Of a DNA stretch of 64,000 bases, positions 47,328-53,372 are shown in pieces. Position 1 is the stretch's first letter. Every line of letters begins with the position of its first letter. Origin of the DNA: Streptomyces sp. NBC_00442 (GTDB lineage: Bacteria; Actinomycetota; Actinomycetes; Streptomycetales; Streptomycetaceae); the NCBI RefSeq assembly GCF_036014195.1, contig NZ_CP107918.1, positions 5,146,001-5,210,000 on the forward strand, read 5' to 3'. The notes below the pieces were generated by a model. It was not told where the DNA came from, searched no databases, and was given only the letters and a program-made list of their open reading frames with translations. The translations under genes and the position numbers were made by a program.

Positions 47328-48887
47328 TCAACTCCGGCCGCTGCCGAGGGCTTTGCGGCTGACCTGGGGGAGTGCGGCCGGGGCCCGCTCGATCCGTAGC
47401 GCGAGCGCGGGGCAACGGCGCACGGCCCGCTGTGCGCGTCCCCGCAGATGGGTCGGTACGGCGGCGTCCGGGACCAGGGGATAGCCGTCGGGGCCCAGCC
47501 GGATCAGCTCCGGCACGATGTCCGCGCAGAGCCCGTGCCCCTCGCACAGCGTCCAGTCGACCACCACCTTCTCGCCGCTCGGCACGCCCTCGTCCTGCCG
47601 GCCGGGGCCGGGCAGGGGAAGTACGCCCATGGTCGGACGCCCGCAGCCCCCGCCCAGCACATGGGCCGCGAGATCGTCCGTGAACGCCGCCAGCGTCGAG
47701 GCGAGGAACCGGGCCGAGCCGTCCGGATGCTTGCAGGCGCCGCGGCCCACTACCGCCTGTGTCACCTCGCGCAGCGCCTCCAGGGCGGCCGGTCCGCCAC
47801 CTCCCAGGACGTCGGCGAGCCCGGCCGCGGCAGCGGGCAGGCCGAGCCTGCACGGGCCGCACTGGCCGGCCGTCTCGGCGGCGAGCCACCTGGCGACCCT
47901 CAAGGCCTCACCGAGCGCACACGTTCCCGCTCCGATCGGCAAGATGGCGCCCGCTCCCAGGGCGCCGCCGAGCGCCGACAAGGAGGCGCGGGAGAGGGCC
48001 GCGTCATGGGCGGCCACCGCGTTCAGCCAGCTGCCGTGATAGCCGCCGGTCAGGACGCCCTGGGGCAGCGAGGGCGCCCCCGCCAATTGCAGGACGTAGC
48101 GCAGCGGCACCCCGGTGGGGGCCTCGACCACCATGGGGCGGGCGACCGCGCCGGAGATGGTCAGCAGGACGGTGCCGGGCTCACTGGAGTCACCGGTGTT
48201 GCCGAAGCGGCGCGGGCCGAGCCGGGCGGCCACCGCGAGCTGCGCGAACGTCTCCGCGTTGGAGAGCAGCGTCGGCGCGCCCCCGACACCCGACTCGGCG
48301 GCCCGCTCGCGCCGGCCCGGCGGCAGGGCGGGTCCGCCGTCCACCGCCCGGATCACCGCGGACGCCTCGCCGGACACCATGCGCTCGGGGGTGCGGACCA
48401 CGCGGGCGCGCAGCGGGGAACTGCGCTTGTCGGTGAGGCCGCGCTCCTCGAAGGCGGCCCGCACGGACGCTTCTGTGGAGTCGCGCGTGACGGCGACCAC
48501 CAGGGTGCGGGCGCCGAGCGCCTCGGCGGCCAGCAGGGCGCCGTCCAGGACGAGATGGGGGGCGCGGCACACCAGGACCGTGTCCTTGCGGCAGGCGGGC
48601 TCGCCCTCGCTCGCGTTGACGACCACGACCGGGCGTATCCCGCGCCGGATCGCCGCGGACGCGACCGCGCGAAGCTTGCGGCCGAAGGGGAAACCCGCGC
48701 CGCCACGGCCGTTGAGGGCGACGTCGTCGGCGAGCTGGGCCAGACGCTCGCCGTTGATCGGCTCCAGCGCACCGTGCACCTTGAGGTGCATCGGCAGCGC
48801 CAGGCGCTCGACGAGATCGAAGCCCGCGGTCAGATGGGGCAGGCCCACGACGCGAACCTCGGGAACATCGGGGAGGGGGCTGTTCAT
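47328..48887 (-). CDS. NuoF-like NADH/FMN iron-sulfur protein with C-terminal ferredoxin domain
   Basis: Protein of 519 aa. The FMN/NADH part shows LNGRGGAGFPFGRKLRAV and VVVNASEGEPACRKDTVL. The SLBB-like region includes VEAPTGVPLRYVL. The Fe-S part reads ETAGQCGPCRLG with a later GRGACKHPDG. Compared with NuoF (ESCGQCTPCR), the first cysteine is Ala, so one cluster ligand is missing or supplied differently. The last 70 residues hold a ferredoxin-like domain (DWTLCEGHGLCADI and RRCPALA: three cysteines, 3Fe-4S style). ATG 48887 has CAGGAG ahead. The gene follows a haem membrane protein by 28 bases, so the pair probably passes electrons from NAD(P)H to a membrane haem. Acceptor unknown. Confidence 0.85.
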   Translation of the reverse strand: MNSPLPDVPEVRVVGLPHLTAGFDLVERLALPMHLKVHGALEPINGERLAQLADDVALNGRGGAGFPFGRKLRAVASAAIRRGIRPVVVVNASEGEPACRKDTVLVCRAPHLVLDGALLAAEALGARTLVVAVTRDSTEASVRAAFEERGLTDKRSSPLRARVVRTPERMVSGEASAVIRAVDGGPALPPGRRERAAESGVGGAPTLLSNAETFAQLAVAARLGPRRFGNTGDSSEPGTVLLTISGAVARPMVVEAPTGVPLRYVLQLAGAPSLPQGVLTGGYHGSWLNAVAAHDAALSRASLSALGGALGAGAILPIGAGTCALGEALRVARWLAAETAGQCGPCRLGLPAAAAGLADVLGGGGPAALEALREVTQAVVGRGACKHPDGSARFLASTLAAFTDDLAAHVLGGGCGRPTMGVLPLPGPGRQDEGVPSGEKVVVDWTLCEGHGLCADIVPELIRLGPDGYPLVPDAAVPTHLRGRAQRAVRRCPALALRIERAPAALPQVSRKALGSGRS

Positions 48888-48915
48888 GGTCGTACTCCTG
48901 CTGTCGCGGGCTCCG

Positions 48916-50091
48916 TCACGGGCGTTCTCCGGCGACCGAGCCCGGCGGGGAGTGCCAGGGCTCGCCGGCGGCCGGCGACTGGTAGGGCGTGGCCGGCGCG
49001 GGGGAGGGCAGCGGCTCCGGAGGACGCGGCGACGGAGCGGGCCAGCGGGCGGCGGGCGGCGCGGCCGGGGGAGCCGGAACGGGCGGAGGGGCGAGCGAGA
49101 CCGCGCGGTAGGCCGCCGAGATGCCCGTACCCGCGTCGATGCGGGGCGGCGGGGAGGCGGGGCGGTAGCGGTGCGGCGCCTCGTGCGGGGGCTCGTGGAG
49201 GGCATACGTCTCCTCGAACTGCCGTGTCGCGTCGAGGGCTTCGTGAGGAGGCCGGGCCGCCCGCAAGGGAGGTGCGGGCTCAGCCTCATAAGAGGGCGGC
49301 CTGACGGGATGGGAGGGCGGTGTGACGGGCCGCGGGGGGACGTCCCCTGTGGCGGGCTCGGCCCGTTCGGCGTCCTGGCCCTGCCGCAGCGGGGCGAGCC
49401 GGGCGGAGATGCGGCGCTTCACCGGTCGGGGCAGCGCGCGTACGGCCAGCGCGCCGGCCACGCCCGCCAGGCTCAGGCCGTACATCGTGACCACCCAGGC
49501 GGCCGGGGGGCGCCCCGCGAACAGGCCGTGCAGCAGGGCGAAGCACCAGGTGGGATAGGCGAGCATGTGGACCGCACGCCAGCGTCCCGCGATACGGCTC
49601 GGCGTGGCGAAGGCGCTGCGCATGGCACCCGTGACGGCCGTGAGGACCATCAGGACCGCGGCGAGCGAACCGAATCCGATCAGGCCCGACGCTCCGGTCA
49701 CGCCGAGCCCGAACGGCACCACGGCGCCCAGGAGCCCGACATGGCCGAGCGCGACCTTGACGGTGACGTGCAGGAGGAGGAAGCCGACGGAGGCGATCGC
49801 GGTGGCGCGGTGGACGGCCTGCGCCATGAGGCGGTCACGCGAGGTGAGGAGCAGCCGGTCGGTGGCGAGCAGGCCCCAGGCTACGGAGGCGGTCAGCGAG
49901 ACCAGCGAGAGGACACCGGCGGTGAAGTCCAGAGCGGCCCGCAGGCCGTCGGACGAGAGGAGCGCCAGCGGCGGTATGAGCAGGGCGACGACGCCGAGGG
50001 CGGCCGCCGAGAGTCCGCCCTTGCGGGCCGGACGGCCCCGTGCGGGGTTCTGACGAAGACGGTGCGGGGTGAGCGGATTGCGAGGTTTCAT
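48916..50091 (-). CDS. Ferric-reductase-like/cytochrome b-type membrane protein
   Basis: Protein of 391 aa. Five to six transmembrane helices lie in residues 25-230. Two histidine pairs are spaced as in FRE/NOX haem proteins: HRATAIASVGFLLLH (H-x13-H) and HMLAYPTWCFALLH (H-x12-H). This implies two stacked haems b across the membrane. The last 160 residues are Pro/Ala/Arg-rich and probably disordered. The ATG at 50091 has GGAGTC ahead, and TAGCAT upstream could be its -10. It is the first gene of a two-gene operon with the NuoF-like protein, which would act as its flavin/Fe-S partner, replacing the fused FAD/NADPH domain of true ferric reductases. Confidence 0.8.
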   Translation of the reverse strand: MKPRNPLTPHRLRQNPARGRPARKGGLSAAALGVVALLIPPLALLSSDGLRAALDFTAGVLSLVSLTASVAWGLLATDRLLLTSRDRLMAQAVHRATAIASVGFLLLHVTVKVALGHVGLLGAVVPFGLGVTGASGLIGFGSLAAVLMVLTAVTGAMRSAFATPSRIAGRWRAVHMLAYPTWCFALLHGLFAGRPPAAWVVTMYGLSLAGVAGALAVRALPRPVKRRISARLAPLRQGQDAERAEPATGDVPPRPVTPPSHPVRPPSYEAEPAPPLRAARPPHEALDATRQFEETYALHEPPHEAPHRYRPASPPPRIDAGTGISAAYRAVSLAPPPVPAPPAAPPAARWPAPSPRPPEPLPSPAPATPYQSPAAGEPWHSPPGSVAGERP

Positions 50092-50152
50092 GGTGGGGCG
50101 ACTCCGAATGGTTCGGCAAAGCGGTCCCGTGGCGGCATGCTAGGTCGCCCCA

Positions 50153-50164
50153 TACCGGCCGGTA
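50153..50164. promoter_or_regulatory. 12-bp palindrome upstream of the cytochrome b-type gene
   Basis: TACCGGCCGGTA, a perfect palindrome 62 bases ahead of ATG 50091 and next to a TAGCAT -10 candidate on the minus strand. It could be an operator for a dimeric regulator. Confidence 0.35.
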
Positions 50165-50312
50165 CGGGGTTTGAGCGGTTGCCCCAGAAGAGGGGGGTAC
50201 GCGGAGTAACCTCGCCCCGGCCCCTTGTGGACGCGCTGTCGACACCCCTCAGGGATCCGCGCCCCACACCCCCCACGGGTACTCCGTGCGAGGCCTGCGG
50301 TACCCTGACGCC

Positions 50313-50351
50313 ATGCGTGCCGTACGCCTTCTGCTTAGCGAGCCGCGCTGA
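50313..50351 (+). CDS. Leu-rich leader peptide of leuS (12 aa)
   Basis: The frame reads MRAVRLLLSEPR then TGA. Residues 6-8 are three consecutive leucines encoded CTT CTG CTT; CTT is rare in such high-GC DNA. The ATG stands six bases after TACCCT, so the message is probably leaderless. A terminator with six T's follows at 50397, and leuS begins 147 bases after the leader stop. This is the layout of a classic leader-peptide attenuator responding to charged tRNA-Leu. Confidence 0.72.
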   Translation: MRAVRLLLSEPR

Positions 50352-50396
50352 ACACTGCCGACCGATGAACAGATCCGGTCGGACTCGGCGCGGCGC

Positions 50397-50420
50397 CCCC
50401 TCCTGTGCGAGGGGTTTTTT
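50397..50420 (+). terminator. Attenuator terminator upstream of leuS
   Basis: CCCCTC pairs with GAGGGG around CTGTGC and is followed by six T's, the only canonical stem-plus-U-run terminator in the window. Upstream hairpins compete for space: CCGACC/GGTCGG (50358-50382), and the longer-range GCCGCGC (50342) with GCGCGGC (50388). Stalling at the Leu codons would change which of these form. Confidence 0.75.
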
Positions 50421-50498
50421 CGTTTGGCGATTCGATCACGGATCGATGAGCGAACGCTCGTAACCGCCGGCAGAGACGATCGATGGAGCTTTGAGGAC

Positions 50499-53372
<2,874 letters not shown>

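Follow-up and report, generated by a model that had tools for sequence, protein, structure and literature searches.

Attenuators of leuS have been proposed in Streptomyces before. In 2005, classical attenuators consisting of a leader ORF, an antiterminator, and a terminator were predicted ahead of leuS in S. coelicolor and S. avermitilis (PMC1262725), and in 2021 the leader peptide LeuL2, MRAVRLLLSEPR, was listed ahead of leuS in S. lividans TK24, where RNA-seq gives a leaderless transcript and where a hairpin and a run of U lie downstream of the leader (PMC8079986). A text search of the open-licence literature for this peptide returned PMC8079986 alone. The preliminary description of the present locus, which held that an attenuator on leuS would be less usual, understates this prior work. 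A 2010 study by Lopatovskaya et al., whose authors overlap with those of the 2005 paper, reportedly dealt with attenuation of amino-acid and aminoacyl-tRNA operons. Among the matches listed from the open-licence literature we found no experiment on leucine control of leuS, and the Term-seq work on S. clavuligerus (PMC8269248) does not use the word "leuS" in its main text.

The ilvB1 attenuator of Mycobacterium tuberculosis (PMC13236596) and the ilvB-II motif of Corynebacterium (PMC10272879) likewise combine a short ORF rich in branched-chain codons with an intrinsic terminator, and in the ilvB-II motif a stem spans the ORF (PMC10272879). Reporter responses are described for these leaders, which differ from the leuS element in their gene and codons and in their proposed antiterminators, whereas we find none supported for leuS (PMC13236596, PMC10272879). 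In the M. tuberculosis model, a ribosome that has reached the stop codon covers the antiterminator (PMC13236596). In S. coelicolor, mutations of the ilvB leader codons are quoted as being without effect on regulation (PMC1262725). The leuA leader (LeuL1; LEU element) is also leucine-rich, and leaderless in S. lividans, but in the passages cited it has no typical terminator and a pseudoknot is proposed (PMC1262725, PMC8079986); our covariance model for the leuS element (see below) matches the leuS site alone in the window's genome. The element can also be set beside the trp, his, phe, and leu attenuators of enterobacteria, in which the position of the ribosome on a short ORF chooses between RNA structures. 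It differs from these in its leaderless transcript, predicted here, and in that no mutually exclusive antiterminator was found.

The window analyzed is a stretch of 64,000 nucleotides, positions 5146001-5210000 of a single 7.73-Mb contig, presumably of a Streptomyces. Its leuS upstream region shares with LeuL2 of S. lividans TK24 the same 12 residues, a hairpin with a U-run, and the same downstream gene, and a leaderless start like that of LeuL2 is predicted for it (PMC8079986). The features are as follows.

50301..50306, plus strand: predicted -10 promoter hexamer TACCCT, six bases 5′ of the leader ATG, from which a leaderless transcript is predicted
50313..50351, plus strand: leader ORF, MRAVRLLLSEPR and stop, LeuL2-like; peptide identical in S. 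lividans TK24 (PMC8079986)
50328..50336, plus strand: putative regulatory Leu codons CTT CTG CTT, the third (50334-50336) being the invariant one
50342..50351, plus strand: 5′ strand of the P1 helix, GCCGCGCUGA, formed by the last leader codons and the stop
50358..50382, plus strand: variable hairpin within the P1 loop, absent from several relatives
50385..50394, plus strand: 3′ strand of the P1 helix, UCGGCGCGGC
50397..50420, plus strand: intrinsic terminator, CCCCTC-CTGTGC-GAGGGG and six T, predicted from sequence alone
50499..53372, plus strand: leuS, leucine--tRNA ligase, 957 aa (NCBIfam TIGR00396, leuS_bact, equivalog; E 5.2e-268)

The leader frame reads ATG CGT GCC GTA CGC CTT CTG CTT AGC GAG CCG CGC TGA. 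Its last codons and stop form, with the bases just 5′ of the terminator, the ten-pair helix that we call P1. The putative terminator stem (50397-50414) and the TTTTTT that follows it (50415-50420) lie between leader and leuS. The preliminary description had placed the leader frame, TACCCT, CTT CTG CTT, the terminator with six T's, and leuS exactly where we find them, and it had noted that GCCGCGC (50342-50348) is able to pair with GCGCGGC (50388-50394), a pairing that does end two bases short of the terminator stem. When folded, the RNA from 50313 to 50421 has a z-score of -2.74, and 3 of 200 shuffled sequences fold equally well. The upstream neighbor is probably a 391-aa frame on the opposite (minus) strand (48916-50091), which has no NCBIfam match; a 782-aa frame on the plus strand (48115-50463) overlaps the leader and is taken to be spurious.

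The comparison covers 178 regions upstream of leuS: 149 belong to the window's family (presumably Streptomycetaceae), nine to other families of its order, and 20 to the rest of the class (presumably Actinomycetia); they were chosen from several hundred listed places and not drawn at random, and the 20 class-level regions all carry the window's LeuS class. A short ATG frame with a Leu run is found in 159 of the 178, and GTG-start leaders add two in the family, one in the order, and five in the class. Every region of the window's family has the leader ORF (149/149; 147 ATG and two GTG), as does every sister-family region of the order (9/9; one starting with GTG and one, L101, cut off past the Leu codons), together with 9 of the 20 regions from elsewhere in the class. 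In L101, a TAG directly after the Leu codons ends the leader; P1 is retained, and so is a stem that resembles a terminator and carries a T-run.

P1 together with the terminator was recovered in 162 of the 178 regions by an automatic finder that is anchored on the terminator and the stop codon and not on Leu, and that accepts P1 only with at least 8 of its 10 pairs. The finder had flagged a further region, L119 (making 163), which was removed as it has no leader peptide. Five more regions were recognized by eye, and 11 are without the arrangement.

The start of the leader is marked by a hexamer of the form TANNNT, 5-8 nt upstream, in 156 of the 159 ATG leaders, which were chosen irrespective of the motif; in background windows the hexamer occurs 23 times in 1932. 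The three misses are leaders in which an internal ATG had been taken as the start. None of the 162 leaders has a Shine-Dalgarno-like string ahead of its start, as expected for leaderless messages. A strict sigma-70 scan returned no promoter at the leader site, and the relatives show no evident -35 element. The earlier suggestion of a leaderless leader message thus agrees both with the hexamer in the relatives and with the RNA-seq data for the identical S. lividans leader (PMC8079986).

One Leu codon is all but invariant in these leaders. In the 162 leaders the third codon of the Leu run is CTT 160 times and CTC twice, always at the same distance from P1, with four codons separating it from the stop. 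The start of the leader varies in length, while the spacing to P1 does not, and the two codons ahead of the third are mostly CTG, CTC, or CTT in variable order. One leader (L116) has only one Leu codon, exactly at the third-codon place. Among 98 matches to the covariance model across the class, the third codon encodes Leu in all 98 (CTT 91, CTC 6, CTG 1) and the second in 97. The stop can lie at the beginning of P1 (TAG in 11 of the 98) or past it (L228, for example), and the position of the Leu codon is unchanged.

CTT was described as rare in this DNA, and codon counts bear this out: In 26 ORF proxies from the window, which are long high-GC3 frames and not annotated genes, it accounts for 25 of 1221 Leu codons, and leuS, with 75 Leu codons, has no CTT at all. 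By the usual decoding rules, one tRNA reads both CTT and the common CTC. The retention of CTT at 50334-50336 in spite of this is therefore likely to have a reason beyond the choice of tRNA, whether decoding speed or the RNA sequence itself.

Covariation in P1 depends on the depth of the comparison. In 54 aligned relatives, P1 is paired in 99.6% of cells, a figure that partly reflects selection, since the alignment was drawn from the output of the finder and its sequences were thus pre-selected for P1. Double changes occur in only three cells of this set, a number reached by 17 of 500 shuffles, so covariation there is weak. Across the 98 class-wide matches, 10 of the 16 pairs of P1 and terminator show double changes, in 74 cells (45 in P1 and 29 in the terminator), counted as sequences and not as evolutionary events in an alignment fitted to the model's structure; none of 500 shuffles reaches 74 cells, and versions slid along the alignment give 2-6. 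The P1 pair adjoining the loop is broken in 19 of the 98. In three leaders the peptide is altered and the pairing kept (Arg to His in L050 and L055, Arg to Cys in L117). P1 is thus an RNA helix that adjoins the terminator, includes the coding end of the leader, and covaries class-wide.

Twelve-codon frames are common, and the leader might be a chance frame next to an ordinary terminator. Frame, promoter, codon, and covarying helix are all conserved in relatives, however, and this conservation refutes such an origin. The alignment of relatives proposed in the preliminary description has therefore come out in favor of the leader-peptide attenuator of leuS that it put forward: Leu codons are conserved, the third of them at the level of the codon, and the helix running from the leader's end to the terminator covaries across the class.

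T-boxes control some aminoacyl-tRNA synthetases. In actinobacteria, T-boxes of an unusual kind lie ahead of ileS (PMC1262725). A T-box or another described riboswitch could in principle act on leuS. An Rfam scan of 49900-50800 with E-values up to 1 returned no match to a T-box or to any other family, which leaves this explanation with hardly any probability.

In the window's genome (7.7 Mb), the covariance model has one match, the leuS site (E 3.2e-19; the window's own sequence is part of the model). It matches 118 of 296 genomes of the class, in 51 of 114 genera, or 90 of 268 genomes when the window's genus is left out. A pattern scan gave 30 named loci, and those confirmed by the model include Jiangella, Saccharomonospora, Amycolatopsis, Actinopolymorpha, and Prauserella. 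For 44 genomes outside the genus, those present in both genome lists and having a model match, we checked the gene that follows. The match lies 49-196 nt 5′ of the best leuS match in 40 of the 44, and of the other four, one lies before a leuS-like stretch (L212), one runs into a contig end (L214), one lies before ilvB (L213), and one before cimA (L215). Among the 40 leuS genes, identity to the window's LeuS, calculated with a 150-residue query, is 41-50% in 21 and 66-75% in 19.

Several further arrangements were seen in the course of these scans. Two Actinopolymorpha loci, L247 (3589-3674 and 6416-6504) and L250 (564-649 and 3377-3462), have tandem pairs of leuS, each gene with its own leader, of which the second in L247 looks decayed; in each pair, one leuS is 38-39% and the other 56-69% identical to that of the window. 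Genome G550 carries leuS genes of both identity classes on separate contigs (L216 and L217), with an attenuator before each. A metagenome bin labeled Chloroflexi (L234), probably misbinned, holds the element together with a leuS that shares 65% identity with that of the window.

A similar plan occurs ahead of cimA and ilvB in five genomes. The cimA-like loci (L215, 259-338; L218, 261-342; L219, 2253-2331; L220, 2174-2254) have leaders such as MPSQVLIIVRRAG, which the leuS model matches as well, and share the leader-end helix adjoining a terminator. The gene at L215 is citramalate synthase (TIGR00977), and the genes at L218, L219, and L220 look alike. A literature search on attenuation by cimA leaders found nothing relevant. 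In L213 (294-374), the leader VRVITLVLRGRAG precedes the gene for the large subunit of acetolactate synthase, again with the same plan.

Leader and terminator might conceivably hold leuS expression at a fixed low level, or answer to a signal other than Leu-tRNA, such as the general translation rate, Rho, or a protein. The dispensable leader codons quoted for S. coelicolor ilvB (PMC1262725) would fit such a scheme, as would the fact that no leucine response of leuS appeared among the open-licence literature matches listed. Against it, a Leu codon holds one fixed position in every leader from the finder (162/162) and from the model (98/98), and 40 of the 44 checked matches stand directly ahead of leuS. 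We therefore consider either scheme improbable.

We favor a ribosome-mediated transcription attenuator of leuS in which a stalled ribosome weakens P1 and RNA polymerase then passes, and we put its probability at roughly two-thirds. The transcript would begin at the leader ATG. With charged tRNA-Leu plentiful, the ribosome would complete the leader and depart; the leader end (50342-50351) would then pair with 50385-50394 as P1, the adjoining terminator would form, and most transcripts would end there. When Leu-tRNA is short, the ribosome would stall with the third Leu codon (50334-50336) in its A site and cover roughly half the bases of the P1 5′ strand. P1 would be weakened or lost, and either its freed 3′ strand would disturb the terminator or the terminator would be weak without P1, so that RNA polymerase could proceed into leuS.

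Folding gives the background to this scheme. In minimum-energy folds of 146 distinct RNAs, P1 is present in all 146 and the terminator in 144, the two forming together, so P1 does not compete with the terminator for base pairs. The GCCGCGC/GCGCGGC pairing noted earlier, and set aside there, is the conserved core of the element, and in the predicted folds it coexists with the terminator. We simulated the edge of a ribosome on RNAs truncated ahead of the terminator's GGGG, with three bases of its 3′ arm out (n = 146). When zero to three bases on the 5′ side of P1 are masked, at least 138 of the 146 RNAs keep the helix; 70 keep it with four masked, 59 with five, and 10 with six.

The usual footprint of a ribosome extends ~15 bases downstream of the first base of the P-site codon. 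By this measure, an A site on the third Leu codon would leave five bases of P1 covered, against two for the second codon and none for the first. The masking threshold of P1 thus matches the codon that evolution has held constant, and this is our main reason for placing P1 on the side of termination. The simulation is not uniformly favorable. With five bases masked, the truncated RNAs give a mixed outcome, 71 of the 146 folding into a candidate antiterminator and 59 keeping a remnant of P1. When the terminator arm has emerged in full, 142 of the 146 RNAs masked at five bases still hold a remnant of P1 with at least four pairs, as do 67 when six are masked, which counts against the scheme. A ribosome at the stop codon would mask P1 too, so the attenuator model needs quick release. 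Ribosome stalling, masking, and the promotion of termination by P1 are what we infer from these comparisons; escape from termination would come about either by kinetic interference or because a six-pair terminator is weak without P1.

The textbook order reverses these roles: P1 would be the antiterminator, a stall at the first Leu codons would leave P1 free to hinder the terminator and leuS would be read, and a ribosome at the stop would cover P1 and let the terminator form. The layout resembles the M. tuberculosis ilvB1 attenuator, which is described in that order (PMC13236596); a ribosome at the stop codon would indeed cover 50342-50351, and the second Leu codon is near-constant too (97/98). 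But P1 and the terminator do not overlap and are held together in the minimum-energy folds (146 and 144 of 146), and the invariant codon is the one whose stall would mask half of P1, L116 having that Leu codon alone. Since P1 and terminator coexist, P1 as antiterminator is not our first choice, and we judge it rather unlikely, with a better claim than leucine-independent control.

The preliminary description could draw no clean antiterminator, and we likewise found none that convinces: The folding of the 146 RNAs yielded no conserved one. The candidate it suggested pairs 50384-50393, largely the P1 3′ strand, with the terminator loop and its GAG, and forms in 115 of the 146 truncated, masked RNAs; in full-length RNA, the terminator wins over it in 139 of the 146. 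Across 58 hairpin types, a median of 58% of random loops do at least as well as the natural one, and no type is in the best 10%. In a permutation over 30 haplotypes, restricted to terminators starting CCCCTC, natural loops fit their own partner no better than those of others (P = 0.27). The terminator loops of Saccharomonospora, Amycolatopsis, and Prauserella are altogether different. The loop of one clade does beat 92%-96% of random loops, a weak point in the candidate's favor. Having failed in random-loop, permutation, and full-length folding comparisons, this structure is kept as a possible variant only. Lengthening P1 by way of codon 10 so that it reaches the arm of the terminator was also considered and rejected, as codon 10 varies.

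The arrangement before leuS, a probable attenuator, is real, well conserved, and already known in Streptomyces. The species named in the cited passages of PMC1262725 and PMC8079986 are S. lividans, S. coelicolor, and S. avermitilis; we find the element in other families as well, with covariation and an invariant codon. What goes beyond these passages is the comparative anatomy, the single invariant codon, and the presence ahead of two LeuS classes. Tentatively, and with less confidence than we have in the attenuator itself, the element may be an ancient device of actinobacteria, found class-wide and lacking a dedicated antiterminator, in which a ribosome stalled at one invariant Leu codon, at constant spacing, would open a helix on which the terminator depends. 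Such a device might have outlived its enzyme, as it stands before leuS of two identity classes and in tandem pairs, and the same plan may serve cimA and ilvB in some lineages.

The occurrence of one attenuator before leuS genes of two identity classes, tandem pairs included, suggests that synthetases were replaced in place under a retained control element, the enzyme being exchanged while its control was kept. The comparison also brings two questions within reach of a test: which of the Leu codons is the one read, and whether termination is aided or blocked by the conserved helix. Should termination require P1, the leuS element would attenuate with no need of a classical antiterminator.
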